Assembly (NCBI RefSeq): GCF_001429185.1
Contig: NZ_LMIW01000012.1
Coordinates: 606 to 64,605, forward strand
Reading direction: 5' to 3'
DNA from: Terrabacter sp. Root85
Lineage (GTDB): Bacteria; Actinomycetota; Actinomycetes; Actinomycetales; Dermatophilaceae
Length of the DNA: 64,000 nt
Of the stretch, positions 1,486-63,805 are shown piece by piece; the first letter of the stretch is position 1; every line of letters starts with the position of its first letter. The notes under the pieces are model-generated. The model did no database searches. It saw only the letters and a list, made by a program, of their open reading frames with translations, and was not told the DNA's origin. The translations under genes and the position numbers were made by a program.

Positions 1486-2547
1486 ATGGACACGGAAACA
1501 TCGACGCAACCCCTGGTCGCGGGCTACGACGGGGTGGTGTGCGACCTCGACGGTGTCGTCTACCGCGGAGCGGATGCCGTCCCGGGTGCGCCGAAAGCGC
1601 TGCAGGACATCGTGGCTCGGGGGATCCGAGTCGTCTACGCGACGAACAACGCCTCCCGCGTCCCGACCGAGGTGGCCACCCAGATCGCCGGCCTCGGTGC
1701 TCCCGCGACGGCATCCGACGTCGTGTCGAGCGCTCAGGCAGGGGCCGCCCGGCTCGCCACCGACCTCCCACCGGGAGCCGCCGTCCTCGCGCTGGGTGGG
1801 GAGGGCGTGGTCGAGGCGCTGCGAGACGCAGGCCTCGTCCCCGTGGCCGCCGCCCGTGACCATGCCCGCTCCGGACCAGACGAGGTCGCGGCCGTGCTAC
1901 AGGGCTTCGGCAAGGAGCTGCGCGTACGCGACTTCGAGACGGCGGCCCGTCTCCTCTCCTCCGGCCTGCCGTGGGTCGCGACGAACGACGACGCGACGCT
2001 GCCGCTGCCGTGGGGGCAGTCCCCGGGCAACGGCGCCTACATCGAGCTGCTCGTCGCCGTGCTCGGGCGACGTCCAGACGTCGTCGGGAAGCCGCACCCG
2101 CCGCTCTACGGGCTCGCCCTCGAGCGCCTCGGCACCGTCGCTGCCAGGACGCTCGCAGTCGGCGACCGGATCGGCACCGACATCGTCGGCGCCGAGGCCA
2201 CCGGCCTCGACTCGGCGTGGGTCCTCACAGGAGTCGACCGACCCTCCGACGTCGTGGCGAGCGAGTCGTCGCCCACCTACGTCATCGCCTCCCTCGCCGA
2301 GCTCCTGATGCCGTATGCCGCCCCGGTGGCCGACGCCGGCGGCTGGCGCTGCGGCGCCGCCCGGGTGGCCCTCGACGGCGAGGACCTCGTCATCGAGCGG
2401 GGGAGCGCGGGCCCCATCGAGGTGGTGCGAGCGGGCCTGGCGGCCCTGCTGACGTCGCGCGACGAGGGAGTGCCTTCCGCGCACCTGCGTCGGGCGGCGG
2501 CGACGCTCGACCGCCTGCTCGACGACTCACCGACCTCGACCCGGTAG
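1486..2547 (+). CDS. HAD-IIA family phosphatase (NagD/phosphoglycolate phosphatase-like)
   Basis: 353-residue cytoplasmic phosphatase of the HAD superfamily, subclass IIA. Visible motifs in order are I, DLDG with D20 and D22; II, YATNNAS; III, the Lys in GKPHPP; and IV, VGDRIGTDIVGA. The capped subclass IIA includes NagD and phosphoglycolate or 4-nitrophenyl phosphatases; the substrate cannot be told from sequence. About 70 residues after motif IV form an extra C-terminal segment beyond the usual ~260-280-residue family length. The ATG at 1486 has a strong AGGAGG site. The position matches Rv1692. Its TAG stop overlaps a TANNNT hexamer before the next gene. Confidence 0.9.
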   Translation: MDTETSTQPLVAGYDGVVCDLDGVVYRGADAVPGAPKALQDIVARGIRVVYATNNASRVPTEVATQIAGLGAPATASDVVSSAQAGAARLATDLPPGAAVLALGGEGVVEALRDAGLVPVAAARDHARSGPDEVAAVLQGFGKELRVRDFETAARLLSSGLPWVATNDDATLPLPWGQSPGNGAYIELLVAVLGRRPDVVGKPHPPLYGLALERLGTVAARTLAVGDRIGTDIVGAEATGLDSAWVLTGVDRPSDVVASESSPTYVIASLAELLMPYAAPVADAGGWRCGAARVALDGEDLVIERGSAGPIEVVRAGLAALLTSRDEGVPSAHLRRAAATLDRLLDDSPTSTR

Positions 2548-2550
2548 CGT
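2545..2550 (+). promoter_or_regulatory. Candidate -10 box overlapping the HAD stop codon
   Basis: TAGCGT begins with the TAG stop of the HAD gene and would start transcription near 2557, giving a ~33-base leader with a GGAGG site before the ATG at 2590. Confidence 0.4.
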
Positions 2551-2589
2551 GACCGCAGGCGAACCAACCACTCGGCACGGAGGCAGCAC

Positions 2590-3030
2590 ATGTTCGGCGA
2601 CAGCGACCCTCGACGCGACGATCTCGGGTCCGGCGAACCGCTCGAGGTCGCGGAGGAGCTCGACCCGATGGACTCGGACGTCGACGCGAGCGACGACGCC
2701 GTCGACGAGTGGGACGACTCAGACGACCAGTCCGACGACGTCAGCTATGCGGACGTGTCGGGAGACGACCTCGAGGACCTCACCGATGAGGACGGCGAGG
2801 ACGACGAGCGCCGGACCGACGACGACACCGCGACGGCCGAGGTGCCCTACGCCCCGCTGGACGCGACGCCAGACGTGCCCACCCCGCCCCTGACGGGTGA
2901 CCAGGCGGTCGACGAGGCGATGATGCGTCTGGCCGAGTCGCAGGCCGGGTCGTTCGCCGAGCGCATCGAGTCCGGCGAGCACGCCCACCGGAGCCTGCAG
3001 AGCCGCCTCGGCGGTCTGGGTGGCGCGTGA
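2590..3030 (+). CDS. Acidic hypothetical protein (Rv1693-like position)
   Basis: 146 residues. Residues ~20-90 are a very acidic, low-complexity stretch rich in Asp, Glu and Ser. The last ~45 residues (from TGDQAVDEAMMRLAES to the end) look like an amphipathic helix and resemble the short conserved helix encoded between the HAD and tlyA genes in other actinobacteria. No catalytic motif, signal peptide or membrane segment is visible. A GGAGG site precedes the ATG, and the stop overlaps the tlyA start (GTGA), so the two are probably translationally coupled. Function is unknown; the acidic region may be disordered. Confidence 0.75.
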   Translation: MFGDSDPRRDDLGSGEPLEVAEELDPMDSDVDASDDAVDEWDDSDDQSDDVSYADVSGDDLEDLTDEDGEDDERRTDDDTATAEVPYAPLDATPDVPTPPLTGDQAVDEAMMRLAESQAGSFAERIESGEHAHRSLQSRLGGLGGA

Positions 3031-3827
3031 CGCGACGTCTCGACGTCGAGCTCGTCGCCCGCGGCCTGGCGCGATCGCGCACCCAGGCCCGTGAGCTCGT
3101 CACCGCCGGCGTGGTGCTCGTCGACGGTCGCCCGGCCGGCAAGCCCGCCCGGCCCGTCGACGACTCGTCGGCCATCGAGCTGACGCGTGAGCCCGACCGC
3201 TGGGTGGGGCGCGCGGCGGTCAAGCTGCTCCACGCCCTCGACACGTGGCCGGTCCCTGTCGACGGCAGACGGTGCCTCGACGTCGGGGCGAGCACGGGTG
3301 GGTTCACCCAGGTGCTCCTCGAGCGCGGTGCCACCCACGTGACGGCCCTCGACGTCGGGCACGACCAGCTCGTCGTGTCGATCGGCGCCGACCCGCGGGT
3401 GCGGGACCTGCCGGGCACCAACATCCGTGACGTCGACGCCGAGGCGCTCGGCGGCCGCTTCGACCTCGTCGTGTCCGACCTCAGCTTCATCTCGCTCGCC
3501 ATCGCCCTGCCCGCCATGCGACCTCTCGTCACCGACGACGGCGACGTCGTCGTCCTCGTCAAACCGCAGTTCGAGGTGGGGCGCGAGCGGCTCAGCCGCA
3601 CAGGAGTCGTCACCTCGCCGCACGAGCGCCGTCGGGTGCTGCGTGACGTGGCCCAGGTCGCGACCGACCTCCACCTGCACCTGCACGCTGCGACGGCCAG
3701 CCCCATCGCGGGGGGCGACGGCAACCGGGAGTTCCTCTTCTGGCTCGCCCCGAGACCCGTGCCGGGCGCCTCGGTGACGGCGGTGGATGACATGCTGGAG
3801 GCCGTCGACCTGGAAGGAGTCCCGTGA
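3027..3827 (+). CDS. tlyA: TlyA-type 16S/23S rRNA (cytidine-2'-O)-methyltransferase
   Basis: 266 residues. The N-terminal ~60 residues form an S4 RNA-binding domain (MTRRLDVELVARGLARS start). An FtsJ-like methyltransferase domain follows, with SAM motif CLDVGASTGGFTQVLLERG around residue 85, SDLSFIS, VKPQFEVG and NREFLFW carrying the expected K-D-K-E tetrad. Family members use SAM to methylate 2'-OH of cytidines in 16S and 23S rRNA, and loss gives capreomycin resistance in mycobacteria. The GTG start overlaps the previous stop, and the gene's own stop overlaps the NAD kinase start. The C-terminus is full length. Confidence 0.96.
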   Translation: MTRRLDVELVARGLARSRTQARELVTAGVVLVDGRPAGKPARPVDDSSAIELTREPDRWVGRAAVKLLHALDTWPVPVDGRRCLDVGASTGGFTQVLLERGATHVTALDVGHDQLVVSIGADPRVRDLPGTNIRDVDAEALGGRFDLVVSDLSFISLAIALPAMRPLVTDDGDVVVLVKPQFEVGRERLSRTGVVTSPHERRRVLRDVAQVATDLHLHLHAATASPIAGGDGNREFLFWLAPRPVPGASVTAVDDMLEAVDLEGVP

Positions 3828-4771
3828 CGCGCCGCATCCTGCTCGTGGCCCACCCGAGGCGCCCCGAGGCGCTGACGGTCGCCAAGGGCGTCGTGCAACG
3901 CCTCACCCACCTCGGCATCGACGTGTCCCTCCAGGCCGACGAGGCCGAGGCCCTCGACCTCAAGGACAGCTCGCGCGTGCACATCGCGTCCGCCGAGGAG
4001 CAGGTCGCGGAGGGGTGCGACCTCGTCGTGGTGCTCGGCGGCGACGGGACCATCCTGCGCGGCGCCGAGTTCGCCCGCAGCGTCGACGTGCCGCTCCTCG
4101 GGGTCAACCTCGGCCACGTGGGCTTTCTCGCGGAGGCCGAGCGCGACGACCTCGACGCCACGGTCGAGCACATCGCGAGCAACGACTACGCCGTCGAGGA
4201 GCGCATGACGCTCCACGTCGACGCGAAGCTGCACGGCGACCTCATCGCGAGCAGCTGGGCCCTCAACGAGGTCAGCGTCGAGAAGGCCGCCCGCGAGCGG
4301 ATGCTCGAGGTCACCGTCGAGGTCGACGGTCGACCGCTGTCGAGCTGGGGCTGCGACGGCGTCATCGTCTCCACGCCGACGGGGTCGACGGCATACGCCT
4401 TCTCGGCCGGCGGGCCGGTCGTCTGGCCGCAGGTCGAGGCCTTGCTCCTCGTCCCCAGTGCGGCCCACGCGCTCTTCGCCCGGCCGCTGGTGCTGGGCCC
4501 CGACACCCACCTGGCCGTCGAGATCAAGGCGGCCACCGAGGGCGCAGGAGTCATGTGGTGCGACGGCCGGCGTCACGTCGACCTCCCTCCGGGAGCCCGC
4601 ATCGAGGTGCGCCGTGGGCTGCGCCCGCTCCGTCTCGCCCGGCTGACGAGCGCACCGTTCACCGACCGTCTCGTCGCGAAGTTCGACCTCTCGGTCGCCG
4701 GGTGGCGCGGCAACGGCGACACCGCCTCGCCCGTGGACGACGTCGACGGCGGTGAGGGTGCCCGGCCCTAA
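3824..4771 (+). CDS. nadK: NAD kinase
   Basis: 315 residues. Phosphorylates NAD to NADP in the cytoplasm. The family GGDGT motif is at residues 72-76 (VVVLGGDGTILRGAEF), followed by GHVGFLAE, the LNEVSVEK segment and TPTGSTAYAFSAGGP. Length is normal. The GTG start at 3824 overlaps the tlyA stop (GTGA), so translation is coupled. It ends in TAA, unusual here, and that TAA forms the first bases of the recN promoter hexamer. Matches M. tuberculosis ppnK in order. Confidence 0.96.
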   Translation: MTRRILLVAHPRRPEALTVAKGVVQRLTHLGIDVSLQADEAEALDLKDSSRVHIASAEEQVAEGCDLVVVLGGDGTILRGAEFARSVDVPLLGVNLGHVGFLAEAERDDLDATVEHIASNDYAVEERMTLHVDAKLHGDLIASSWALNEVSVEKAARERMLEVTVEVDGRPLSSWGCDGVIVSTPTGSTAYAFSAGGPVVWPQVEALLLVPSAAHALFARPLVLGPDTHLAVEIKAATEGAGVMWCDGRRHVDLPPGARIEVRRGLRPLRLARLTSAPFTDRLVAKFDLSVAGWRGNGDTASPVDDVDGGEGARP

Positions 4772-4780: not shown

Positions 4781-6574
4781 GTGTTCAGCCAGATGAGGAT
4801 CCGGGGCGTCGGTGTCATCGACGACGCCGTCCTCGACCTGAGCCCCGGGCTCAACGTGCTCACCGGTGAGACCGGCGCCGGCAAGACCATGGTCGTGTCG
4901 GGGCTCGGCCTGCTGCTGGGCGAGCGCGCCGACTCCGGCCTCGTGCGCACCGGCTCGGCCTCGGCGCTCGTCGAGGGTGTCGTGCAGCTGCCCCTCGACC
5001 ACCCGGCCCTCGTCCGGGCCGACGAGGCGGGCGCCGACCACGAGGACGGCGAGCTCGTCATCGCCCGCACCATCGCCGCGGCCGGCCGGTCGCGCGCCCA
5101 CGTCGGCGGTCGCACGGCGCCGGTCTCCGTGCTCGCCGAGCTCGGCCAGATGCTCGTGGCCGTGCACGGGCAGGCCGACCAGTGGCGGCTCAAGCAGGGC
5201 GATGCCCACCGCGTCGTGCTCGACGACTTCGGGGGTCCCGAACTCACGGCACTCCGCGACCGCGTCGGCGAGCTCTACGACCGCTGGCGTGCGTCGGCCC
5301 GCGAGCACGAGCGCCTCGTCTCGGAGGCGCGCGAGCGCGCCCGCGAGATCGACTCGCTCACCGCCTCGCTCGAGGAGATCGAGGTCGTCGACCCCCAGCC
5401 GGGCGAGGACGCGGCGCTGCGTGCCGAGGACGAGCGCCTCGCGCACGCCGACACGCTCCGCCTGGCCGCAGCCCAGGCACTCGCAGATCTCAGCGGCGAC
5501 GAGTATGCCGCCGAGCCGGCTCCGAACGTCCGTGACCTCATCGGGTCGGCGCGGGGTGCGCTCGGCCCGGCCACGGCGCACGACCAGGCCCTCGCCGGGC
5601 TCGACGAGCGCCTTCACGAGGTGGGCACGCTCGTGACCGACCTGTCGGCCGACCTCACGGCATACCTCCAGGACGTCGATCTCGACCCCGAGCGGCTCGG
5701 CTACGTGCAGGAGCGGCGGGCCGCCCTCGGGGTCCTCACGCGCAAGTACGGCGAGACCGTCGACGAGGTGCTCGAGTGGTCGGGCCGCGGGGCCGCTCGC
5801 CTCGACGAGCTCGTGACCGCCGACGACCGCGTCGAGCGACTCGGCGTCGAGGTGGCCGAGCTCGAGTCGTCCGTCGTCGCGGCCGCCCTCTCGCTGTCCG
5901 AGGCTCGCCGGGCCGCCGGTGACGACTTCGGCACCCGCGTCTCGGAGGAGCTCTCGCACCTGGCCATGGGCAAGGCCGTCGTCCACGTCGAGCTGCGCCG
6001 ACGCACCGACCCCGAGGGTGTGGCCCTGCCCGACGGCGACCGCGTGCGGCTGGCCCGACACGGCATCGACGACGTCGAGATCCTGCTCGCGGCCAACCCC
6101 GGAGCCACGCCGCGCAGCGTCGCGCGGGCCGCCTCGGGCGGTGAGCTCTCCCGCGTCATGCTCGCGCTCGAGGTCGTCGGCTCACGCAACGCCTCGGGCG
6201 AGGCGGCGAGCGGACCACCCACGTTCGTCTTCGACGAGGTCGACGCCGGTGTCGGCGGGCGGGCGGCCCTCGACGTGGGTGCCCGGCTGGCTGCCCTCGC
6301 CGAGCACGCCCAGGTCATCGTCGTCACCCACCTCGCCCAGGTCGCAGCGTTCGCCGACCGCCACCTCGTCGTGCACAAGGCCGACGACGGCCGCATCACC
6401 TCGAGCAGCGTCAGCGTCGTCGACGGTGACGCCCGGCTGCGGGAGCTGTCGCGGATGATGGGCGGCGACCCCGACTCCGAGGCCGGGCTGGCCCACGCCG
6501 GCGACCTGCTCGAGCAGACGAGCGGTGCCCGCGTCGGCACGCGGCCGGCCGCCCGCAGCGGCTCACGCGTCTGA
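4781..6574 (+). CDS. recN: DNA repair protein RecN
   Basis: 597 residues. SMC-like ATPase acting in recombinational repair of double-strand breaks. The Walker A segment LTGETGAGKT is near residue 28, a long charged coiled coil spans the middle, the ABC-type signature ASGGELSRVMLALE is near residue 450, and Walker B FVFDEVDAGVGG follows with VTHLAQVAAFAD. The first codons MRIRGVGVIDDAVL match the usual RecN opening, supporting the GTG at 4781. No Shine-Dalgarno site is apparent, and a TAAGGT hexamer 6 bases upstream suggests a leaderless mRNA. Confidence 0.96.
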   Translation: MFSQMRIRGVGVIDDAVLDLSPGLNVLTGETGAGKTMVVSGLGLLLGERADSGLVRTGSASALVEGVVQLPLDHPALVRADEAGADHEDGELVIARTIAAAGRSRAHVGGRTAPVSVLAELGQMLVAVHGQADQWRLKQGDAHRVVLDDFGGPELTALRDRVGELYDRWRASAREHERLVSEARERAREIDSLTASLEEIEVVDPQPGEDAALRAEDERLAHADTLRLAAAQALADLSGDEYAAEPAPNVRDLIGSARGALGPATAHDQALAGLDERLHEVGTLVTDLSADLTAYLQDVDLDPERLGYVQERRAALGVLTRKYGETVDEVLEWSGRGAARLDELVTADDRVERLGVEVAELESSVVAAALSLSEARRAAGDDFGTRVSEELSHLAMGKAVVHVELRRRTDPEGVALPDGDRVRLARHGIDDVEILLAANPGATPRSVARAASGGELSRVMLALEVVGSRNASGEAASGPPTFVFDEVDAGVGGRAALDVGARLAALAEHAQVIVVTHLAQVAAFADRHLVVHKADDGRITSSSVSVVDGDARLRELSRMMGGDPDSEAGLAHAGDLLEQTSGARVGTRPAARSGSRV

Positions 6575-9713: not shown

Positions 9714-11503
9714 CCGACCGGAGCGCAGGGGGTGGGCCCGTCTCACGGCGCGGGCTGTTCGCCGCCGCAGGCACCATCGCGGTGATCACGCTCGTCGCCC
9801 GGGTCGTCGGCTTCGGACGATGGTTCGTCTTCTCCCACTCCGTCGGTGCGACCTGCGTCGGGAGCGTCTACCAGTCGGTCAACGCGGTCCCCAACGTGCT
9901 CTTCGAGATCGCGGCCGGGGGAGTGCTCGCGGCGGTCGCCGTGCCTCTCGTGGCAGGCGCACTGGCCCGCGGCGACCGGATCGAGGCCGACCACACGGCC
10001 TCCGCGCTGCTGACGTGGGTGCTCGTCGTGCTCGTGCCGCTGGGCCTGGTCGTGGCCCTTGCCGCGGAGCCGATCGCGCGGGGCCTGCTCGGAGCCGGCG
10101 ACACCTGTCCCGGCGGGGTGGGCCTCGGCGCCGACCTGCTGCGGGTCTTCGCGATCCAGATCCCGCTCTACGGCGTCGGCATCGTGCTCGGCGGTGTGCT
10201 CCAGTCTCACCACCGGTTCGTCGCGGCCGCGATCGCCCCGCTCATGTCGAGCCTCGTCGTCATCGCGACCTACGCGGCCTACGCCGCCGTCGCCACCGAC
10301 CCGGCCGCCCCGATCGCGCAGGTCCCCGCGGGCGCGACCACGATCCTGGCCGTGGGCACGACCCTCGGGGTCGTCGCGCTGTCGCTGCCGCTCCTCGTTC
10401 CGGTGCGTCGCGCCGGGGTCCACCTCACGGTGACGACACACTTCCCGCACGGCGTCGCCGCCCGCGTCCGGCGGCTCGCGGTCGCCGGGCTCCTCGCCGT
10501 CGCCGGACAGCAGCTGGCGACGCTCGTCTTCATCCGCCTCGCCAACGACCGCGGCGGCCCCGGGACGCTCAACGTGTACACCTACGTCCAGGCCGTCTCC
10601 CTGCTCCCGTATGCCGTCCTCGCCGTCCCGCTCGCCACCGCGGCCTTCCCGACGCTGGCGGGGAGCGCGCAAGCCGGCGGGCCCGAGCCGGACGCGGGAG
10701 CAGCAGCGCCGGCCCCCGCGCCGGCCTCCGCGCCGGGGTCCGCGGCCGTGGACGTGCTGCGGCGGACGTGGCTCGCCACCCTCCTGGCCGGTCTGCTGGC
10801 CGGGGGTCTGCTCGTGGCCGTCGCCCGACCGGTCGGCGCCTTCTTCGCCCTGCTCGACGCCGGGCGAGCGGACGGCAACGGGGCCGTGGCCCTGTCCGCC
10901 ATCCCCGACGCCCTCGTGCTCGTGGCCCCGGGCATCGTCGGCCTCTGCGCAATCGGGCTGCTGACCCGGGCCTCCTACGTGCGAGGCCGTGCCCGGGTCG
11001 CGGGCGCCATGGTCGCCGTCGCGTGGCTCGCGACGACCGTCGTCCCGCTCGTGGCCCTCGGAGACGCGGCCGGACCCGCGACGACCGTGCGCGCTCTCAC
11101 CCTCGGCACCAGCGTCGGGCTCGTGGCCGGGGCCGTCGCGCTCACGGTCCTCGTCGCGCGGAGCTGGGGCCGCGCGGCCCTGACCGTACCGGCGCGCCCC
11201 GTGGCAGCCGGATTGCTCGGCGCCGCGTCAGCCGCGATCCTCGGCTGGTGGCTCGGCGGCCTCTGGACCGCGGACGGACTCCTCGTCGCCGCCGCGCAGG
11301 GCGTCGCCGTGGCGCTCGCGGCCACCGTGACCCTCGTCGTCGTCGTGCTCCTCGTCGACCGCTCGGTCGTCGCCCGGCTGCGGCGGCCGTCACCGACCGC
11401 CGCGACCTCGCCGACGTCCATGACCGCCCCTTCGTCCGCGCCGATGTCCGCCCCTGCCGGCGAGCAGGACCCGCACCCGGCCGCGCCTCCGGAGACGCGA
11501 TGA
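9710..11503 (+). CDS. MurJ/MviN-family lipid flippase
   Basis: 597 residues with about 13-14 hydrophobic segments. The opening GTIAVITLVARVVGFGRWFVFSHSVG and NAVPNVLFEIAAGGVLAAVAVPLV are hallmarks of the MviN/MurJ branch of MOP exporters, which move lipid-linked sugars such as lipid II across the membrane. A Pro/Ala-rich insert (about residues 325-345) sits in a loop and a ~40-residue Ser/Thr/Pro tail follows the last helix. The ATG at 9710 overlaps the previous stop. Actinobacteria usually carry another MurJ near the origin, so this may be a second flippase for a different glycan, possibly the product of the preceding gene. Confidence 0.85.
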   Translation: MTDRSAGGGPVSRRGLFAAAGTIAVITLVARVVGFGRWFVFSHSVGATCVGSVYQSVNAVPNVLFEIAAGGVLAAVAVPLVAGALARGDRIEADHTASALLTWVLVVLVPLGLVVALAAEPIARGLLGAGDTCPGGVGLGADLLRVFAIQIPLYGVGIVLGGVLQSHHRFVAAAIAPLMSSLVVIATYAAYAAVATDPAAPIAQVPAGATTILAVGTTLGVVALSLPLLVPVRRAGVHLTVTTHFPHGVAARVRRLAVAGLLAVAGQQLATLVFIRLANDRGGPGTLNVYTYVQAVSLLPYAVLAVPLATAAFPTLAGSAQAGGPEPDAGAAAPAPAPASAPGSAAVDVLRRTWLATLLAGLLAGGLLVAVARPVGAFFALLDAGRADGNGAVALSAIPDALVLVAPGIVGLCAIGLLTRASYVRGRARVAGAMVAVAWLATTVVPLVALGDAAGPATTVRALTLGTSVGLVAGAVALTVLVARSWGRAALTVPARPVAAGLLGAASAAILGWWLGGLWTADGLLVAAAQGVAVALAATVTLVVVVLLVDRSVVARLRRPSPTAATSPTSMTAPSSAPMSAPAGEQDPHPAAPPETR

Positions 11504-12645
11504 GGGTGCTCATGGTGCTCGGACACGCGGCCGGTGGCGTGGGTGCGCACGTCGACGCCCTCCTCACGGGACTTCGTGGGCAGGGGCACGACGTTCAGGT
11601 CGTGACGGCGGAGTCGACGGCCCGGGCCTTCGACTGGGCCGACGCCCACCGGCTCTGGCCGGTCCACGGCGGGGTACGTGCACCCCGTGGTCTCGTGGAC
11701 TGGCACCGCATCATGCGCCTGGCGGGCACGGTCGACGTCGTCCACGCGCACGGCCACCAGGCCGCCGTCGTCGCTGCCGTGGCCGTCGCCCGCGCGCGGC
11801 CACGCCCGCGGCTCGTGGTCTCTCTCCACAACGACCTCCCGCCGGTCCAGGGCTCCCCCGTCGCGCGCGCCGCGGCGTCCGCCGCCCGGCGGCTGGTCGC
11901 GTGGTCCCTGCACCGAGCCGACCTCGTGACGGGCGCGAGCGAAGACCTCGTCGAGCTCGCAGACGCCCTCGGTGCCCGGCGCACCGAGCTCGCCCTCGTG
12001 CCCTCCGCCGCGGTCGCCGACCTGCTGGAGCGTCCTGCCGCCCTCGAGCCGACCGAACGCGCCGCCCTGCTGGCCGGAGCCGGCCTGCCGACCGACCGCC
12101 CCGTCGTGCTCACGGTCTCGCGCATCGCGCCCCAGAAGGACCTCCCGACCCTCCTCGCGGCCGCGCGGCGCTCCGACGCCGCCGCCACGTGGGTCGTCGT
12201 CGGCGACGGCGACGATCGGCTCCGTGCCCGTCTCGAGGAGGAGGCGGACGGCATACGGCAGGGGGAGGACGCGAGGGCAAAGGTCCGGTTCGTGGGGGCG
12301 CGCACCGATGTGTCGGAGTGGCTGCGGGCGGCGGACGTATTCGTCCTCACGAGCCGCTGGGAGGCCCGGGCGCTCGTCGTGCAGGAGGCGATGGCGGCTG
12401 GGCTCCCGGTCGTCGTGACCCGTACGGGCGGTCTGCCCGACCTCGTCGGGGACGCGGGTTCTCTTGTCCCCGTGGGGGACCCGGCCGTCGTAGCAGCCGA
12501 GGTGGACCGCCTGCTCACCGACGCCGACGCCAGGCTCCGGGAGGGTGACGCGGGACGAGCCCGGGCGGCCGGATGGCCCACTCCTGACGACGAGACGCGC
12601 CGGTGGGTGGAACGCTACGTCACGGAGACCCGCGGAGTGACGTAG
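11500..12645 (+). CDS. Glycosyltransferase, GT-B fold (family 4-like)
   Basis: 381 residues from ATG 11500, overlapping the flippase stop (ATGA). N-terminal Rossmann domain opens [18 protein letters not shown]; the C-terminal half carries [53 protein letters not shown] and the [16 protein letters not shown] nucleotide-sugar loop of retaining GT4 enzymes. No signal peptide or membrane helix, so it acts on the cytoplasmic face. Tight coupling to the WecA/MraY-like protein and flippase suggests extension of a lipid-linked sugar; the donor and acceptor are unknown. Ends in TAG, overlapping the pyrG promoter hexamer. Confidence 0.87.
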
Positions 12646-15114: not shown

Positions 15115-15536
15115 GCGGGGCCTTCGGTACAGGCGTCTCGGGGCCGTGCCCCTGTGGGGGCGGCCCGGAAGACCTGGCGTATGCCGCGTGCTGCGGCCCG
15201 CTCCACGCGGGCGACCGCCCGGCCGGGACCGCAGGCGAGCTGATGCGCTCGCGCTACGCGGCGTTCGCCGTGGGGGACGAGGCGTACCTCCTGCGCACCT
15301 GGCACCCACGGACGCGCCCCGCGCGGGTGGGACTCGACCCGGACACACGGTGGACGGGCCTGACGGTGCTGCGCACGGAGCGCGGCGGGCTCGGTGACGA
15401 CGACGGCGTCGTCGAGTTCGTGGCCCACTGGACGGAACCGTCAGCGGGCGCCACGCGTCGGGGCGAGCTGCACGAGGTGAGCCGCTTCGCCCGCCGGGGC
15501 GGCCGCTGGCTCTACGTCGACGGCGAGCACGGGTGA
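15111..15536 (+). CDS. YchJ/UPF0225 family protein with SEC-C-like Cys motif
   Basis: 141 residues from GTG 15111, overlapping the NUDIX stop (GTGA). The N-terminus has a CPCG motif and a CCGPLHAG motif about 15 residues later, a likely zinc site like the SEC-C motif, then LMRSRYAAFAVGDEAYLLRTW, which is highly typical of the YchJ/UPF0225 family. Function of the family is unknown. Its last 96 bases overlap the 3' end of the convergent DMT transporter gene. Confidence 0.85.
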   Translation: MSGAFGTGVSGPCPCGGGPEDLAYAACCGPLHAGDRPAGTAGELMRSRYAAFAVGDEAYLLRTWHPRTRPARVGLDPDTRWTGLTVLRTERGGLGDDDGVVEFVAHWTEPSAGATRRGELHEVSRFARRGGRWLYVDGEHG

Positions 15537-16515: not shown

Positions 16516-17439
16516 ATGATCGATCCCGTCGCGCTGCGCTCGCTCGTCGCCGTCGAGGCGCACGGCTCCGTCGGCGCCGCCGCTGCCGCGCTCGACTACA
16601 CCCCGAGCGCGGTGTCCCAGCAGATCAAGCGCCTCGAGACCCAGACGGGGGTGCAGCTGCTCGAGCGGCAGGGGCGCGGTGTCCTGCTCACGGAGGCCGG
16701 TCGCACGCTCTCCGACGCTGCGCGGTCCCTGCTCGCGGACATGGAGCGACTCGAGTCCCGGCTCCACAGGGACAGCGGAGAGACGGTCGGGACGGTGCGC
16801 CTCGCGACGTTCGCCACGGCGTACCGGGGGGTCGTCGTGGGCGCTATCGGCCGCCTGCGATCGACCGCGCCGGACGTCGTCCTGCGTCCCGACGAGATCG
16901 ACCCCTGGGACGCCGTCGACGCGGTCGCGGCCGGCACCCACGACCTCGCCCTCGTGCACAACTGGGAGCCGCTGCCGCTCGCCATCCCCGACCACCTCGA
17001 GGTGCGCGACCTCGGCCGGGACCGCGCGGACGTCCTCGTCCACGAGAGCCACCCGCTCGCCGCCCGGCGCAGCATCGGCGTGCGGGACGTGCTCGACGAG
17101 CACTGGGCCAGCGTCGCGCCCGGCTCCATCTGCCACCAGTGGCTCCAGAAGATGTATGCCGACGTGGGTCGGTCCCCTCGGATCGCGCACGTGGCGCTCG
17201 AGTTCGCCACGCACGTCGCCCTCGTCGCGGCGGGGGAGGCCATCGCCCTCGTGCCACGCCTCGGCCGGGGACCGCTCCCCGTGGGCGTCGTCGCTGTCCC
17301 CATCGTCGACCCGATCTCCGAGCGCACCGTGAGCCTCGTCTGGCGGAGCACCATGACGGCAAGCCCCGCGCTGGCCGTAGCCGTGGACTGCCTTGCCGCA
17401 GAAGCCTCCCGGGACCTCCGGCCCCTTTCGGGAGACTGA
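16516..17439 (+). CDS. LysR-family transcriptional regulator
   Basis: 307 residues. The N-terminal winged HTH reads GSVGAAAAALDYTPSAVSQQ then IKRLETQTGVQLLERQGRG, and a periplasmic-binding-like effector domain follows from about residue 90. The opening IDPVALRSLVAVEAHGSV is typical of LysR proteins. It is divergent from the DMT transporter and probably controls it, sensing a small metabolite. A TAGCAT hexamer 6 bases before the ATG and the lack of a ribosome site suggest a leaderless mRNA. It converges on tetR with 22 bases between the genes. Confidence 0.92.
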   Translation: MIDPVALRSLVAVEAHGSVGAAAAALDYTPSAVSQQIKRLETQTGVQLLERQGRGVLLTEAGRTLSDAARSLLADMERLESRLHRDSGETVGTVRLATFATAYRGVVVGAIGRLRSTAPDVVLRPDEIDPWDAVDAVAAGTHDLALVHNWEPLPLAIPDHLEVRDLGRDRADVLVHESHPLAARRSIGVRDVLDEHWASVAPGSICHQWLQKMYADVGRSPRIAHVALEFATHVALVAAGEAIALVPRLGRGPLPVGVVAVPIVDPISERTVSLVWRSTMTASPALAVAVDCLAAEASRDLRPLSGD

Positions 17440-18314: not shown

Positions 18315-19808
18315 TTGACCACGACGCCGACCCGTACCTATCCGTCGCTCCGCGCGGCGTGGATCCCGATGCTCGCGCTCTGTCTCGCCTTCTTCGTCGA
18401 GATGGTCGACAACACCCTCCTGACGATCGCGCTGCCGACGATCGGCCGCGACCTCGGGAGCGGCACCACCGCTCTCCAGTGGGTCACCGGGGCCTACTCG
18501 CTGACGTTCGGGGGACTGCTGCTCACCGCCGGCTCGGCGGCGGACCGGCTCGGCCGCCGCAGGGTGCTCCTCTGGGGGCTCGCCGGCTTCGGGATCATCA
18601 GCCTCGCCGTGGCCGCCGTGACGACGACGGGCGAGCTCATCGCCCTGCGCGCCGCCCTCGGGGTCGCGGCGGCAGCGATGGCGCCGATCACCAACTCGCT
18701 CGTCTTCCGTCTCTTCGACGACCAGGCCCTGCGGATGCGGGCCATGACCGTCATGATCGTCGTCGGGATGTCGGGCTTCGTCCTCGGTCCGCTGCTCGGG
18801 GGCACGGCCCTCGCCCACGTCGGCTGGGAGTGGCTCCTGCTCGTCAACGCCCCCATCGCGCTCGTGGCCTGGGTCGGCGTCCGGCTGGGGGTGCCGGCAG
18901 ACCGGCCCGAGGACCTCACCACCGACCGGCTGGACCTGCCCGGTGCCCTGCTGAGCATCGCGGCCATCGGGCTCGGCTGCTACGCCCTGACCAGTGGCGT
19001 CGAGCACGGATGGACGTCGGCGACCACGCTCTCGGCCGTCGTCGGCTCCGCGCTCGCGCTCGTCGGGTTCGTCCGCCACGAACGGCGTGCCGCGTCCCCG
19101 ATGCTCGACCTGACGCTCTTCTCGTCAGGGACCGTGCGCGGGGCCACGCTGGCGCAGGCCGGCACCTCGATCGCCATGGCCGGCGTCATGTTCGGCCTCA
19201 TCCTGCACTTCCAGTACGCGTGGGGATGGAGCCCCGTGCGTGCCGGGCTCGCCAACCTCCCGCTCATCATGACGATGGTCCTCGCGACACCGCTTTCGGA
19301 GTGGCTCGCCCGCCGCTTCGGCCACCGGCTCGCGTGCCTCGTCGGAGCGGGCCTGCTCGTCGTCGCGCTCATCGGGATGGCCTGGGGTGTCGACCGCGGC
19401 TACCCGACCATCGCCGTCGCGATGGTCGTCATGACCCTCGGCCTCCGCACGGTCATGACGATCTGCGCGGTGGCCCTCGTCGAGGCGATGCCCGCCAACC
19501 GCACGTCGATCGGCACGGCGCTCAACGACACGGCCCAGGAGGTCGGCACGAGCGTCGGCACCGCCGTCGTGGGCACCCTCGTCGCCGTGCTCGTGACGAC
19601 CACACTGCCCGCCGGCACGTGGAGTCCTGAGCTCGTGTCGTCCTTCTTCCACGGTGAGCGGGTGACGTATGCCGTGCTCGCCGTCATCGTCGGGGTCGTG
19701 ACCACGTGGGGCGCCCTCACCCTCACCGACTCACGCAGCGTCGAGGAGCACGACGTGCCGGACGCCCCGGCTGACGCGGTGGGCGCGGGAGCGCGACCGA
19801 CCGCGTAG
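18315..19808 (+). CDS. MFS multidrug transporter, DHA2 (EmrB/QacA) type
   Basis: 497 residues from TTG 18315, chosen because GAGGAG (18301-18306) lies 8 bases upstream; an ATG at 18297 is inside the operator and lacks a ribosome site. About 14 hydrophobic segments are visible. FVEMVDNTLLTIALPTIGRD, LQWVTGAYSLTFGGLLLTAG and DRLGRRRVLLWGL are DHA2 family motifs. These pumps export toxic cations or drugs using the proton gradient. Divergent tetR and the operator imply substrate-induced expression. The convergent 3' neighbour is an acyltransferase. Confidence 0.9.
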   Translation: MTTTPTRTYPSLRAAWIPMLALCLAFFVEMVDNTLLTIALPTIGRDLGSGTTALQWVTGAYSLTFGGLLLTAGSAADRLGRRRVLLWGLAGFGIISLAVAAVTTTGELIALRAALGVAAAAMAPITNSLVFRLFDDQALRMRAMTVMIVVGMSGFVLGPLLGGTALAHVGWEWLLLVNAPIALVAWVGVRLGVPADRPEDLTTDRLDLPGALLSIAAIGLGCYALTSGVEHGWTSATTLSAVVGSALALVGFVRHERRAASPMLDLTLFSSGTVRGATLAQAGTSIAMAGVMFGLILHFQYAWGWSPVRAGLANLPLIMTMVLATPLSEWLARRFGHRLACLVGAGLLVVALIGMAWGVDRGYPTIAVAMVVMTLGLRTVMTICAVALVEAMPANRTSIGTALNDTAQEVGTSVGTAVVGTLVAVLVTTTLPAGTWSPELVSSFFHGERVTYAVLAVIVGVVTTWGALTLTDSRSVEEHDVPDAPADAVGAGARPTA

Positions 19809-19867: not shown

Positions 19868-20956
19868 CTACGTCGTGGGCGTGGCGCGCGGAGCGGCCTG
19901 CGGGTCGCGGGCGTCGGCGAACTCCTGCTGGCGGCGTGACGGCTGGTCGAGGCGGAGGCGTCCGCGCAGGCGACCCACGGGCCGCTCGACGAGCACCCAC
20001 GACAGCCACGAGACGAGCACGGCGGCCGCGATGAGCAGCAGGTTGCGGGGTGTCGTGTGCTCACCGAGGAGCCGGCTGTTGATGAACGTCTGGTGCCAGA
20101 GGTAGAGCGCGTAGCTGATGGTGCCGAAGAAGACCATGACGCGGGAGCCCACGACGCGCGAGTGGCCCGACACGGCGGCATACACGAGCCACACCCCGAC
20201 GACGGCGTAGACGGCGCCGAGAGGTCGGAAGAGCGGGTGGTCCACCTCGAGCCCGTGCCCGGGGAAGGCCGAGACGGCGACCATGACGACGAAGGGGACG
20301 AGCGGGCTCGTGGCCGGCAGCTCCCAGCCACGGGACCGTACGGCGGCCAGTGAAAAGGCGAGCGCCACGCCGAGCAGCAGGGCGAACGCGTTCGTCTCGG
20401 TCGAGATGTCGAGGCGGATCGCGCTCCCTACCGTCCAGACGGAGTAGAAGGTCGCGAGCGCCGCGAGGCTGAGGACGACGGCGAGCGCTCGGCTGCGAAG
20501 CCACGTCATGAGGACGATGAAGATCGCCGGCCAAACGACGTAGAACTGCTCCTCGACCGAGAGCGACCAGAGGTGGTTGAGCACCCCGAGGTCCGTGCCG
20601 GCGATGCGCACCCAGTTGCCGACGTAGAAGAGCGATGCGAGGGCCGCCGTCGGGTAGGTCGAGAGCCGGTCGTCGCCGGTCGCCCAGAGCAGCAGGGGAG
20701 CGAGCAGGAGCAGGAGGATGAGGGCGGGCAGGAGGCGTAGGGCGCGCCGTCCCCAGAAGCGCCACAGGCTGACCGACCCCCAGCGGTCCCACTCCCGGAT
20801 GAGCAGGCTCGTGATGAGGTAGCCCGACAGGACGAAGAAGAGCGTCACCCCGGACAGCCCACCCCAGCGCGCCGGCAGCCCGGAGTGGGCGGCGACGACG
20901 AGGAGGATCGCGAGACCTCGGACGCCGTCGAGGTCGCGGTTGCGGGAGTGCTGCAC
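19868..20956 (-). CDS. Acyltransferase 3 (OafA/YrhL-like) membrane protein
   Basis: 362 residues from GTG at 20956, chosen because TAGGCT lies 7 bases upstream (leaderless geometry) and [20 protein letters not shown] is the usual family opening; a 26-residue upstream extension is Pro-rich and unlikely. Ten or so hydrophobic segments, the family motif [16 protein letters not shown], and [14 protein letters not shown] are visible. The family moves O-acyl groups onto sugars of cell-surface glycans or secondary metabolites. Target unknown. It stands alone, divergent from aspS. Confidence 0.88.
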
Positions 20957-22996: not shown

Positions 22997-23048
22997 GCGT
23001 ATGCCGTCACCTGCCGTGCGCTTTGCCCATCCTTGACTCGGGCCGTCC

Positions 23049-36557: not shown

Positions 36558-36644
36558 CCCGGGCAAAGGTGGTGGGACGAGTCTCACGCGGTCCGTTAGG
36601 GTTGAACCACCTCGGCGCGAGCGTGCGCCGACGACCGAAGGACG

Positions 36645-42078: not shown

Positions 42079-42788
42079 TCCCACCGATGACGTGGGCCGA
42101 GGCCCCCGGTGCGCCGTGGTGGTTCGTCCTGGCGCTCGCCGTCGCCGGTGCGCTCGTCGGAGTGGTGCTCCGTCGCCGCGTCGCGACGGGTGGCTACCGG
42201 CTCGACGACGAGACGGGGCCGCTGCCGCGGGTGCCCTCGGTGGTCGTCCCCGTCGCGCTCGCCCTGCTCTGGGGGCTGCTCGGCTGGCGTTTCGGTCCGC
42301 TGTCGGACTGGGCGCTGACGCCGGCCTACCTCGCGTTCGCCTTCGTCGCGGTCGCCCTCGCCTGGATCGACGCCGACGTGCACCGCCTCCCGCGCGGACT
42401 GACGCGGCCGGCATACCCCCTGCTCGTCGCCCAGCTCGCGCTGGCGTCCCTCGCCTCGGGCGACTGGGAGGCGCTGCGGCGGGCGGCGATCGCCGGTGCC
42501 GTCCTCTGGACGATCTACTTCGTCCTCGCCCTCGTGGCCGCGCTGCTCGGCAGCGGCTTCGGCTACGGCGACGTGACGCTCGCCGGGCTCGTCGGTCTCG
42601 CGACGGGCTACGTGAGCGTGTCGACGACCCTGGTCGCGTCGTACGCCGCGTTCATCCTCGCGGGGGTCTACGGGCTCGTGCGGCTCGTCCTCCGGCGCGG
42701 CACCCGCAAGGACGACATCGCCTTCGGCCCGTGGATGCTGCTCGGCCTGCTCATCTCGCTCCTCGTCCAGGTGCGCCCGCTCGTCTGA
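42075..42788 (+). CDS. A24-family prepilin peptidase-like membrane protein
   Basis: 237 residues from GTG 42075. Six to eight hydrophobic segments. The two aspartates of the GxGD-type aspartyl protease family are visible in [12 protein letters not shown] and [11 protein letters not shown]. It lacks the N-terminal cysteine methyltransferase domain of full PilD proteins. Such peptidases cut type IV pilin-like signal peptides at the membrane. No pilin, ATPase or secretin gene is in the window, so its substrates would be encoded elsewhere. Rv2551c occupies the same place in M. tuberculosis. Confidence 0.88.
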
Positions 42789-44625: not shown

Positions 44626-45749
44626 GCGGTGCGGCCGAGCCGACGACGATCCCCGTCGGCGACGACTACGACGTCGTCATCGGGTCCGGCGTCCTCGACC
44701 GGGTCGGTGACCTGCTCGGCGACGACGTCGAGCGCGTCCTCGTCGTCCACCCCCCGACGCTGCCGGAGCTGACCTCGCGTCTCACCGCGGCCCTCGAGAG
44801 CCAGGGGTATGCCGTCCACGTCGCCGAGGTGCCCGACGCGGAGGCCGCCAAGACGGCCGAGGTCGCGGCAGCCCTCTGGGCCCAGCTGGGCCGGGCGGGC
44901 TTCACCCGCACCGACGCCGTCGTGGGAGTGGGGGGCGGCACGGTGACCGACCTCGCCGGCTTCGTCGCGGCGTCGTGGCTGCGCGGCGTGCGCGTCGTCC
45001 AGGTGCCGACGACCCTGCTCGGAATGGTCGATGCAGCCGTGGGCGGCAAGACCGGCATCAACACCGCCGAGGGCAAGAACCTCGTCGGTGCCTTCCACCC
45101 CCCGGCCGGGGTGCTCTGCGACGTCGACGTCCTCTCGAGCCTGCCCGAGGCCGACCTCGCCGCGGGACTGGCCGAGGTCGTCAAGTGCGGCTTCATCGCC
45201 GATCCGGTCATCCTCGACCTCGTGGAGATGGCCGTCGCCGACGACGCGGAGCAGGCGCGCAGCGCCGCCAACCCGCACCTGCGTGAGCTCATCGAGCGCG
45301 CCGTCCGGGTCAAGGCCGAGGTCGTCGCCGCGGACCTGCGCGAGAGCTCGCTGCGCGAGATCCTCAACTACGGCCACACCTTCGGCCACGCCATCGAGCA
45401 GGTGGAGCACTACTCGTGGCGGCACGGCGAGGCAGTCGGAGTCGGCATGGTCTACGTCGCCGAGCTCGCCCGCCTCACCGGTCACCTGACCGGTCCCGAG
45501 GGCGACGCGCTCGTCGCTCGACACCGCTCGGTCCTCAGGTCGCTCGGCCTCCCGACGACGTATGCCGCGGGGCGCTGGGACGAGCTGCTCACCGCGATGC
45601 GACGCGACAAGAAGTCCCGGGGCTCGACTCTGCGTTTCGTCGTGCTCGACGGGTTGGGCCGGCCGAACCGTCTGGCCGGGCCTGACGACGCGCTGCTCCA
45701 GGCGGCCTACGGCCTCGTGTCGCGGCGCCCCGACGCGAGGGCTCACTAG
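44622..45749 (+). CDS. aroB: 3-Dehydroquinate synthase
   Basis: 375 residues from GTG 44622. NAD-binding GVGGGTVTDLAGFVAASWLR and PTTLLGMVDAAVGGKTGIN, and zinc ligands in LAEVVKCGFI and NYGHTFGHAIE, mark a complete enzyme converting DAHP to 3-dehydroquinate. It ends in TAG, and this stop begins the next promoter hexamer. Confidence 0.96.
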   Translation: MSGAAEPTTIPVGDDYDVVIGSGVLDRVGDLLGDDVERVLVVHPPTLPELTSRLTAALESQGYAVHVAEVPDAEAAKTAEVAAALWAQLGRAGFTRTDAVVGVGGGTVTDLAGFVAASWLRGVRVVQVPTTLLGMVDAAVGGKTGINTAEGKNLVGAFHPPAGVLCDVDVLSSLPEADLAAGLAEVVKCGFIADPVILDLVEMAVADDAEQARSAANPHLRELIERAVRVKAEVVAADLRESSLREILNYGHTFGHAIEQVEHYSWRHGEAVGVGMVYVAELARLTGHLTGPEGDALVARHRSVLRSLGLPTTYAAGRWDELLTAMRRDKKSRGSTLRFVVLDGLGRPNRLAGPDDALLQAAYGLVSRRPDARAH

Positions 45750-45759: not shown

Positions 45760-46197
45760 ATGACGGCACCCACGGTCTTCGTCCTGTCGGGCCCCAACCT
45801 GAACCGTCTCGGCAGCCGCGAGCCGGAGGTCTACGGCTCCGACACGCTCGACGACGTCCACGCCGCGGTGCAGCGCGAGGCGCGCGAGCTCGGGCTCGTC
45901 GCCGACTGCCGCCAGACCAACCACGAGGGCGAGCTCATCGACTGGCTGCACGAGGCCGTCGACGTCGGCGCCGACGTCGTGCTCAACCCGGGCGCCTTCA
46001 CCCACTACTCGTATGCCGTCCGCGACGCGTGTGCCATCGTGACGACGAGCGGTCGCAGCCTCGTCGAGGTGCACCTGAGCAACCCGGCCGCGCGCGAGGA
46101 GTTCCGGCACACGTCCGTCGTCGCGGGCGTCGCGACCGGCACCGTCGCCGGCTTCGGCCTGCAGTCCTACCTGCTGGCGCTGCGCGCCCTCGTCTGA
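45760..46197 (+). CDS. aroQ: 3-Dehydroquinate dehydratase, type II
   Basis: 145 residues. Opens TVFVLSGPNLNRLGSREPEV then YG, with the catalytic Tyr; NPGAFTHYSYAVRDA, and the EVHLSNPAAREEFRHTSVV end with the catalytic His pair, are typical of the small dodecameric enzymes. Dehydrates 3-dehydroquinate, completing the aroB-aroQ-aroE segment. Last gene of the shikimate cluster. Confidence 0.95.
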   Translation: MTAPTVFVLSGPNLNRLGSREPEVYGSDTLDDVHAAVQREARELGLVADCRQTNHEGELIDWLHEAVDVGADVVLNPGAFTHYSYAVRDACAIVTTSGRSLVEVHLSNPAAREEFRHTSVVAGVATGTVAGFGLQSYLLALRALV

Positions 46198-50435: not shown

Positions 50436-50531
50436 CGTGCGGCAACTCCCCAAGACAGTGAACGCCCGGCGATCCGGCGTGCCCAGAGGCGCGCGCCCCG
50501 ACCGGCCGGCATACGAAAGTGGTTTGTGACG

Positions 50532-55846: not shown

Positions 55847-57129
55847 CCACCCAGACCCCCCTGACCGTGCCCACCCGTGACGGGTGGCCCACACGCAGCC
55901 GCGTGGCGGCGACCCTCGTGCTCGAGGACGGCCGCACCTTCCACGGGTCGTCCTACGGTGCACTGGGCCAGACCGTCGGCGAGGCCGTCTTCTCCACCGG
56001 CATGACGGGCTACCAGGAGACGCTGACCGACCCGAGCTACCACCGGCAGGTCATCGTCATGACCTCGCCGCACGTCGGCAACACGGGCGTCAACACCGAG
56101 GACGACGAGAGCAGCCGCATCTGGGTCGCCGGCTACGTCGTGCGCGACCCCGCCATCCGGGCGTCGAACTGGCGCGCCACGCGCGACCTCGAGGACGAGC
56201 TCGTCGACCAGGGCGTCGTCGGCATCTGCGACATCGACACGCGCGCCCTGACCCGCCACCTGCGCGAGCGCGGGGCGATGCGGGTCGGCATCTTCAGCGG
56301 TGACGCCGCCGAGCGCCCCGAGGCCGAGCTGCTCGAGGCGGTTCGCACGAGCCCGCAGATGGCCGGGGCCGCGCTCGCCGCCGAGGTCACCACCTCCGAG
56401 CCGTATGCCGTCCCGGCCGTCGGCGACAAGAGGTTCACCGTCGCGGCCGTCGACCTCGGCATCAAGGCGATGACCCCGGCGCTCATGGCCCAGCGCGGCA
56501 TCGAGGTGCACGTGCTGCCGGCCACCGCGACGATCGACGACGTCCTGGCGGTGGGGGAGTCCGGCCCCGACGGCGTCTTCTTCTCCAACGGTCCCGGAGA
56601 CCCTGCCACCGCCGAGCGCGAGGTCGCGCTGCTGCGTGAGGTGCTCGACCGCGGCATCCCGTTCTTCGGCATCTGCTTCGGCAACCAGCTGCTCGGTCGC
56701 GCCCTCGGCTTCGGCACGTACAAGCTGAAGTACGGCCACCGCGGCATCAACCAGCCGGTCATGGACCGCACGACCGGGAAGGTCGAGGTGACCGCTCACA
56801 ACCACGGCTTCGCCGTGGACGCACCCCTCGACGAGGACAGCGACACGGCATACGGCCGCGTCCGTGTCTCGCACGTGTGCCTCAACGACGACGTCGTCGA
56901 GGGGCTCGAGTGTCTCGACCGTCCCGCGTACTCCGTGCAGTACCACCCCGAGGCCGCGGCCGGCCCGCACGACGCCGCCTACCTCTTCGACCGCTTCGTG
57001 GAGCTCATGGAACACGGTCCGGCGCGCGTCGCGCCTGGACTGACGAGCGAAGCGAGCGAAGCGAGCCAGCCGAGGAGGGAAGGCGTGACGACACCAAGCG
57101 CCGGACCCGCGACCGGAGGGAGCAAATAA
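55843..57129 (+). CDS. carA: Carbamoyl-phosphate synthase small chain (with C-terminal tail)
   Basis: 428 residues from GTG 55843. N-terminal domain opens [20 protein letters not shown]; the class I amidotransferase domain has [13 protein letters not shown], the nucleophile in [16 protein letters not shown] and the [12 protein letters not shown] pair. It supplies ammonia from glutamine to CarB. After FDRFVELM about 35 extra residues, including a SEASEAS stretch coded by a 9-bp repeat, replace the usual end. Stop TAA is one base before the carB ATG. Confidence 0.95.
57045..57066 (+). repeat. 9-bp tandem repeat in the carA 3' tail
   Basis: GAGCGAAGC occurs twice followed by GAGC. It encodes the SEASEAS part of the non-conserved CarA tail. 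Confidence 0.7.
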
Positions 57130-57130: not shown

Positions 57131-60501
<3,371 letters not shown>

Positions 60502-62342: not shown

Positions 62343-62372
62343 GCCACCCGACCCGTGAACGGAGACCGAACG

Positions 62373-63267: not shown

Positions 63268-63738
63268 ATGACGCACACTCGACGCGCACGCCGACTGCTC
63301 GCCACCGTCGCCCTCACCGCGACGATCCCGCTCGCCACCGCGTGCGGCTCCAGCACCCAGCCGTCCTCGACAGCCGGCAGCACCGCGTCGGCGTCCTCGT
63401 CGGCGTCCTCGTCGGCGTCGAGCACCACGACGAGCGCCTCGGCAGCGGCCGACTCCGCCTACTGCGCGGCGCTCGAGTCCGGGCAGAAGGAGCTCGAGTC
63501 GATGTCGTCGAAGATCAGCGACAAGGCCGCTCTGGAGCAGGGCAAGGTGGTGCTCCAGAAGATCGAGGCCGCCGCGCCGGACGAGGTCAAGCAGGCCTGG
63601 GGCGACCTCATCGCCTTCGTCGACGCGGCGGCGTCGGGCGACAAGGGCGCCGTCTCCGCGGCGACCGCGAAGATGGATGCCTCGAGCACGAAGATCGAGG
63701 CGCACGCCAAGGCGACCTGCAACCTCGACATCTCCTGA
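63268..63738 (+). CDS. Small putative lipoprotein, unknown function
   Basis: 156 residues from ATG 63268; ATG 63256 would add four. Signal peptide RRLLATVALTATIPLATAC with C26 as likely lipidation site, then a Ser/Ala/Thr linker coded by a 12-bp repeat, and a ~95-residue helical domain starting YCAALESGQKELESM and ending ATCNLDI. Two Cys (one near each end of the domain) may pair. The start YCxAL is shared with the next gene, so they look like tandem paralogues. Function unknown. Confidence 0.75.
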   Translation: MTHTRRARRLLATVALTATIPLATACGSSTQPSSTAGSTASASSSASSSASSTTTSASAAADSAYCAALESGQKELESMSSKISDKAALEQGKVVLQKIEAAAPDEVKQAWGDLIAFVDAAASGDKGAVSAATAKMDASSTKIEAHAKATCNLDIS

Positions 63739-63745
63739 CCATCGG

Positions 63746-63770
63746 ACCCGGGCAGCGCGCTGCCTCGGGT
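63746..63770 (+). terminator. Terminator candidate between the lipoprotein genes
   Basis: ACCCG/CGGGT outer arms (63746-63750, 63766-63770) flank GGCAG/CTGCC (63751-63755, 63760-63764) with a 4-base loop and one bulged T. Confidence 0.55.
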
Positions 63771-63799
63771 AGTCGCAGGACGTCGCCGACGACACGGCA

Positions 63800-63805
63800 T
63801 ACGGT
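63800..63805 (+). promoter_or_regulatory. Leaderless-type -10 box for last gene
   Basis: TACGGT lies 6 bases before the ATG at 63812 and overlaps a copy of the octamer CGGCATAC (63795-63802). Confidence 0.5.

Follow-up and report, generated by a model that had tools for sequence, protein, structure and literature searches.

An abundant octamer as a putative DNA uptake sequence of a Terrabacter-type actinobacterium

Why does the octamer GTATGCCG recur in such numbers in the genome of Terrabacter sp. Root85? The question was raised by a 64,000-nucleotide stretch of contig NZ_LMIW01000012.1 (positions 606 to 64,605; hereafter the window), in which a first-pass annotation had reported a strong excess of this word on both strands and had suggested that it might serve in DNA uptake, in recombination or segregation, or as a target of methylation. 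Uptake labels for the DNA of kin are best known from Neisseria and Haemophilus. We propose, at a probability of about three in four, that GTATGCCG is a putative DNA uptake sequence (DUS) of this Terrabacter-type actinobacterium. In favour of the uptake-like role, inverted pairs of the word form intergenic hairpins, related genera have words of like behaviour, and the genome encodes ComEA, ComEC, DprA, and Tad clusters. The lack of strand skew speaks against sites of the Chi type or of the type of FtsK-orienting polar sequences (KOPS). The known systems with habits of this kind are DUS and the uptake signal sequences (USS) of other bacteria.

An exact search of the window, whose GC content is 71.9%, yields 28 copies between 2313 and 63802, 15 on the plus and 13 on the minus strand, which corrects the earlier count of 27 (14 and 13). 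One hundred dinucleotide-preserving shuffles gave a mean of 0.80 and a maximum of 4 copies, and a second-order Markov model predicts 0.75, so the reported over-representation holds. The flanks are partly conserved, as had been stated, since of the 28 copies 18 have C at -1, 14 have T at +8, and 16 have C at +9; a frequent extended form is C-GTATGCCG-T-C/G. The suspected genome-wide signal was found as well: the assembly (G000; 4.865 Mb in 15 contigs) holds 2,300 copies, about one per 2.1 kb, versus 237 for the reversed word taken as a control. Octamer statistics were computed on a 464-kb sample consisting of 400 kb of contig C1 and the window, where 210 copies stand against 6.5 expected from a second-order Markov model, the top z-score of all octamers that occur 10 times or more. 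A frequency near the Markov expectation and confinement to one codon frame had been named as grounds for giving up the idea; under the second-order model neither was observed. Along C1 the copies are spaced more evenly than a Poisson process would give (variance 2.72 at a mean of 4.55 per 10 kb; lower-tail P 0.022). For GTATGCCGTC the count in the same genome is 713 versus 25. Separately, GTAGTAGT/ACTACTAC was over-represented in positions 1-400000 of C1 plus the window (14 versus 0.3).

The placement of GTATGCCG is far from uniform. According to a home-made gene caller, 136 of the 210 sampled copies are genic, 68 intergenic, and 6 lie at edges, in a sample of which 10.6% is intergenic; the composition of the intergenic DNA predicts 1.3 copies there, making the excess about 50-fold. 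The density reaches 3.16 per kb in gaps between convergent genes, 1.56 in tandem gaps, and 0.44 in divergent gaps. Of 63 intergenic copies on C1, 38 have a stop codon, and 18 a start, no more than 60 bp away. In 584 kb, inverted pairs of the word (->-<-, at most 60 bp apart) were observed 10 times, versus 1.55 expected (P about 5e-6), and a pair in the opposite order once. Six of the ten have a spacing of exactly 22 bp and eight a spacing of 18-22 bp. All ten are intergenic, none is located in a divergent gap, and for seven of them a stop codon is no more than 26 bp away. They form hairpins on the 3' side of genes, with folding energies of -18.5 to -43.9 kcal/mol. A role of the hairpins in transcription termination would be plausible.

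The genic copies make use of rare codons. In the sampled genes, 97 of 219 TAT codons and 12 of 25 ATA codons fall inside GTATGCCG; TAT accounts for 6.8% of tyrosine codons and ATA for 0.4% of isoleucine codons.

The word is conserved between sister species, which the first-pass annotation had proposed as a check. When the 20-kb comEC region was aligned with seven sister species, 55 of 64 GTATGCCG sites were unchanged, versus 29.3 expected from all octamers, and 3 of the 4 sites aligned between the window and Terrabacter tumescens are unchanged too. In three close genera that are poor in the word (G036, G034, and G024), a single site of 21 is unchanged, where the octamer average of the same alignments predicts about 4.4; one of the aligned Terrabacter sites reads GGATGCCG in both G034 and G024.

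The distribution of GTATGCCG was surveyed with one genome per species, rounded genome sizes, and a cut-off of 200 copies per Mb for richness. All nine genomes of the own genus and 28 of 51 from the rest of the family exceed this value, and among 38 genomes that represent 19 other families of the order none does; of 15 named genomes, T. tumescens alone is rich, the other 14 remaining below about 52 per Mb. Thus the word is a clade trait, limited to one family among the genomes searched. In G023 the control word is high as well (1,142 versus 453). NCBI taxonomy places the genus in the Intrasporangiaceae (Micrococcales); the family name in GTDB is Dermatophilaceae. On a tree of LeuS and ComEC (60 rows, with G002, G037, G041, and G042 left out and no support values), genera rich and poor in GTATGCCG are interleaved, as in the pairs G052/G009, G047/G036, and G043/G053. 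The deep part of this tree is unreliable, since two outgroup genomes land inside the family. In the outgroup G060 the word GGACGCCG turned up.

Several genera poor in GTATGCCG carry other words instead. An assumption-free search of 120-kb samples revealed GGATGCCG in G034 (127 versus 13), CGAAGGGG in G045 (101 versus 14), and GTACGCCG in G048 (108 versus 23), and no clear word in the 120 kb of G009. Elsewhere the search was made in comEC regions of at most 20 kb, and the words from these are leads, owing to the small samples: GGATGCCG in G024, GTATGACG in G035, GTATGACG beside GTATGCCG in G011, GAATGCCG beside GTATGCCG in G020, GTATGCGG in G028, GTACGCCG in G056, and CGAAGGGG in G046. In about a dozen further genera poor in GTATGCCG, no word was found in the regions sampled. 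Words from pooled homologous comEC regions, for instance AAGTACTT, reflect shared genes and were set aside.

Whole-genome counts give GGATGCCG 3,949 copies in G034 and 3,816 in G024, and 2,195 in G052 beside 1,217 of GTATGCCG. GTATGACG numbers 1,954 in G035, 1,557 in G011, and 834 in G012, all three of which are also rich in GTATGCCG. Words other than GTATGCCG favour intergenic DNA too, to varying degrees: 51 intergenic copies versus 2.1 expected for GGATGCCG in G034, 39 versus 2.2 for CGAAGGGG in G045, and 12 versus 2.5 and 17 versus 2.0 for two words of G048. GGATGCCG forms inverted pairs in G034 (9 versus 2.13). The dialect of G048, whose inverted pairs show no clear excess, is the weakest; GTACGMCG counts, less surely, among the words carried in place of GTATGCCG. 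Two side observations concern the same genera: G045 and G046, which share the quite different CGAAGGGG, are sister genera, and in G048 the sequence TATCGAGA/GTATCGAGA is strongly over-represented (17 versus 0.9), perhaps as a small repeat.

A related word was found in a second family. Across 296 genomes drawn from the whole class, the consensus GKATGCCG exceeds 400 per Mb in 12 of the 13 genomes of family f19; the 277 genomes outside f1 and f19 all stay, as we read the rows, at or below about 270 per Mb. The f19 genome G095 contains 4,491 copies of GGATGCCG, which is also the top octamer of its 40-kb sample (49 versus 5.9); 6 of these 49 are intergenic, where 8% of the DNA is intergenic, and one hairpin pair is present. 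Because a region from a named Microbacterium (Microbacteriaceae) is enriched too (15 versus 3.1), f19 is probably the Microbacteriaceae.

Does the organism have the means to take up DNA? The check for com genes suggested by the first-pass annotation was positive: the Terrabacter genome encodes ComEC, DprA, and, just upstream of ComEC, a ComEA-like protein in which we read a transmembrane segment and a helix-hairpin-helix end. It also has three Tad clusters, whose ATPases are the only strong matches to the T2SSE family in this genome. Across the survey, ComEC was found in 92 of 98 genomes and T2SSE ATPases in all 15 tested. A type IVa pilus with a sequence-specific minor pilin, ComP in Neisseria, would be looked for in a DUS system; here no PilT above the cut-off was found in the own genus, which leads us to reject a PilT-type pilus as the uptake machine, and ComP was not searched for. 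The word would need a receptor of another kind. Within the family, PilT matches were found in G033 (above the cut-off) and G013 (partial strong matches), and a related ATPase in G054. These three genomes are the only ones with PilT- or PilB-like matches far stronger than the Tad ATPases, and type IVa pili therefore look like a rare extra in the family. Finally, G022 has a shortened ComEA, and in G057 no ComEA was found next to comEC; both genomes lack GTATGCCG, which would fit a loss of competence.

If GTATGCCG is a DUS, a surface receptor of the natural-transformation machinery would bind the word on free DNA, the pilus would then retract, ComEA and ComEC would bring in one strand, and DprA and RecA would recombine it. 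As word-bearing DNA would enter best, transformation itself would spread and repair the words, a molecular drive that would account for their exactness, even spacing, and conservation; a change in receptor specificity would shift the genome to a new dialect. More speculatively, the pilus could be the Tad/Flp pilus, as the only strong pilus-type ATPases of the own genome are those of Tad, and Micrococcus luteus transforms with Tad genes. On balance we lean towards a wider proposal, namely that DUS self-recognition arose again in Actinomycetota, with the Intrasporangiaceae using at least four dialects and a second family, probably the Microbacteriaceae, a related word; that the reader is ComEA or a subunit of a Tad/Flp pilus in place of a type IVa pilin; and that the word is kept by transformation-driven spread.

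A number of observations weigh against the uptake reading. In the 464-kb sample, single-mismatch forms of GTATGCCG are mostly at or below background, GGATGCCG being the exception (100 versus 47); since many mutated copies of an uptake word might be expected, this scarcity argues against an uptake word. Against the over-representation itself, GTATGCCG is outside the 15 best octamers of the window when a maximal-order model is built from the sub-words of the octamer, although 28 of the 32 TATGCC hexamers fall inside GTATGCCG, and therefore this model predicts the word from itself. The hairpins are followed by no evident T-run, which leaves their terminator role unproven. The inverted-pair excess is unclear in G045 (3 versus 1.47) and G048 (2 versus 1.42 and 2 versus 0.83). 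In distant word-bearing genera (G047, G029, G058, and G023), 8 of 17 aligned sites are kept, where about 3.4 are expected on the same octamer-average basis as above. No receptor candidate emerged, the net charge of small pilin-like proteins giving nothing clear.

The gene content speaks on the same side. ComEC, ComEA, and Tad genes, the Tad ATPases included, were also found in genera with no detected word and are therefore not discriminating; in G009, for instance, each of the three types of Tad ATPase is present. TadC of cluster C is absent in 2 of 28 genera rich in GTATGCCG and in 7 of 23 others, a trend (Fisher P 0.061, uncorrected for kinship or completeness) with exceptions, as G025 and G055 have the word and lack this TadC; it was rejected as a discriminating gene, as were T2SSF counts, which do not separate the groups cleanly. 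Moreover, in Terrabacter itself the cluster C tadC gene is interrupted, near residue 263 of 325, by an element of about 10.2 kb (G000:C13, about 100133-110297) that encodes a 529-residue protein reading like a serine recombinase. On the side of the uptake reading, the element contains no GTATGCCG, versus about 4.8 copies expected at the genome mean. In G034 the cluster C tadC is also cut, near residue 265 (G034:C1, about 2423740-2429796); of TadG only a C-terminal piece turned up, at a distance of about 6 kb, and GGATGCCG, the word of that genus, is absent from the intervening DNA. The break at the same point in both genomes suggests that what is probably a competence gene holds an attachment site used repeatedly.

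Among other explanations, the one that survives best, itself unlikely, is that the word is kept by a methylase, as a shadow of restriction avoidance, or by a bias of mismatch repair. Such maintenance has been suggested for the HIP1 (highly iterated palindrome) of cyanobacteria, and the clade specificity, very high copy number, and exactness of GTATGCCG agree with it. But GTATGCCG lacks palindromic symmetry, neither the paired hairpins nor the preference for convergent gaps would follow from a repair bias, and a methylase leaves the hairpins and the dialects unexplained.

A Chi-type recombination hot-spot, that is, a word regulating a RecBCD-, AdnAB-, or AddAB-like nuclease in double-strand break repair, would likewise be octameric, non-palindromic, abundant, and mainly genic, as are 136 of the 210 sampled copies. 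Chi is skewed with replication. The strand-skew check proposed by the first-pass annotation gave 1,168 copies on one strand and 1,132 on the other genome-wide, and each of ten 40-kb bins of C1 is roughly balanced, as far as 15 contigs with no origin or terminus map allow. The intergenic excess and the inverted hairpin pairs are not expected of Chi, and two sister genera of the family use the quite different CGAAGGGG; a Chi role is thus decidedly unlikely, and a strand-skewed form of it was rejected. The same balance bears on a word for chromosome segregation or architecture, such as KOPS, architecture-imparting sequences (AIMS), or the site of a nucleoid protein, since words of the KOPS and AIMS type are strand-biased from origin to terminus. 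The even spacing along the chromosome would suit such a word, yet it would not account for hairpins between genes or for dialects that differ by genus; we regard it as very unlikely, and strand-skewed KOPS were rejected together with Chi.

The hairpins themselves could indicate that GTATGCCG arose as a side effect of intrinsic terminators or through the spread of a small repeat, such as a repetitive extragenic palindrome (REP) or a miniature inverted-repeat transposable element (MITE). The ten intergenic hairpin pairs, seven of them close behind a stop codon, and a weak GGC at +11 to +13 common to the intergenic copies point that way. However, about 20 of 261 sampled copies sit in inverted pairs, most copies are genic and in several frames, and the flanks of the genic copies outside -1, +8, and +9 show weak, mostly three-base-periodic preferences; hence a MITE or REP origin was rejected, and this explanation as a whole appears highly improbable. 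Finally, although 78 of the 136 genic copies are in the sense Tyr-Ala frame, an artefact of that codon pair or amino-acid pair has practically no chance of explaining the 68 intergenic copies, the 38 genic copies in antisense phase 1 and the 20 that use other frames, or the use of rare TAT and ATA codons, and in G009 the genuine codon words TGGCCGAG and CTGCGCGA, rejected as a dialect, show no intergenic excess (3 versus 1.6 and 0 versus 1.2).

Within the window, too, the word spans several frames, one of them dominant, in agreement with the earlier claim that it is more than a Tyr-Ala codon pair. Twenty-three copies lie within genes, 13 of them in the sense Tyr-Ala frame: 2313..2320, 5503..5510, 10609..10616, 17154..17161, 19667..19674, 25551..25558, 35090..35097, 44807..44814, 45560..45567, 46011..46018, and 56403..56410 on the plus strand, and 20176..20183 and 27054..27061 on the minus strand in minus-strand genes. 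Seven minus-strand copies are antisense in phase 1 (4389..4396, 5658..5665, 24161..24168, 29815..29822, 42409..42416, 44058..44065, and 56846..56853). The rarer frames are sense phase 1, at 33218..33225 and 58638..58645 on the plus strand, the latter read as Arg-Met-Pro, and antisense phase 2, at 12249..12256 on the minus strand. Thus GTATGCCG is not limited to a single frame. Five copies are intergenic according to the gene caller, at 15179..15186 and 22999..23006 on the plus strand and at 36551..36558, 50507..50514, and 63795..63802 on the minus strand. The copies at 50507, 56403, and 58638 are unchanged in T. tumescens, which differs by one base at 56846. The window also encodes a protein that we read as carB-like, with 96% identity to its T. 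tumescens counterpart over 1,099 residues.

If GTATGCCG is indeed a DUS, self-preference in transformation evolved independently in a Gram-positive phylum and with no type IVa pilus, and the dialects would offer a natural series of receptor-word pairs for finding the receptor. Many environmental actinobacteria would be predicted to be naturally transformable, the right word aiding the entry of DNA, and word-free stretches would mark foreign DNA across these genomes. No report of an actinobacterial uptake word was found among the listed matches from the open-access literature searched, subscription journals and preprints lying outside the search. The main text of PMC4322843 does not contain the terms uptake sequence, uptake signal, DUS, sequence-specific, or homologous DNA, nor does PMC8467076 contain uptake sequence, DUS, or USS.

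Among known systems, the HIP1 of cyanobacteria is a clade-wide, very frequent palindromic octamer. GTATGCCG resembles it in being clade-wide and very frequent, and differs in that it is not palindromic (GTATGCCG versus CGGCATAC) and forms inverted pairs. The USS of Pasteurellaceae differ from GTATGCCG in sequence. According to excerpts of PMC12616744, they number hundreds or thousands of motifs, often act as terminators in the form of inverted repeats, and have variants within the family. They belong to another phylum, and a further difference is that the single-mismatch forms of GTATGCCG are mostly not enriched.

M. luteus is an actinobacterium of the same NCBI order. Excerpts of PMC4322843 describe two tad loci, both needed for competence, together with ComEA and ComEC homologues and no other type IV pilus genes, and note that ComEA and ComEC homologues accompany tad genes across Actinobacteria. 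The Terrabacter genome has the same parts as this Flp/Tad transformation system.

The Neisseria word, GCCGTCTGAA, is unrelated to GTATGCCG. The setting differs as well: the host is an actinobacterium, the own genus has no PilT above the cut-off, and the function is one that we infer. A 2025 paper, so far as its excerpts go, treats ComP-dependent uptake in Neisseria as an outlier, Haemophilus aside (PMC12040237). The habits of the word nevertheless recall the Neisseriaceae DUS, whose receptor is ComP, and the pattern of dialects matches theirs. As the available parts of PMC3630211 describe them, these DUS number 943 to 5,918 copies per genome, the dialects of different taxa are one or two bases apart, a genome may contain two of them, five members of the family have no obvious word, and inverted pairs are associated with terminators. 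In copy range, dialects, co-occurring dialects, wordless members, and inverted pairs, GTATGCCG and its relatives are like the DUS so described.

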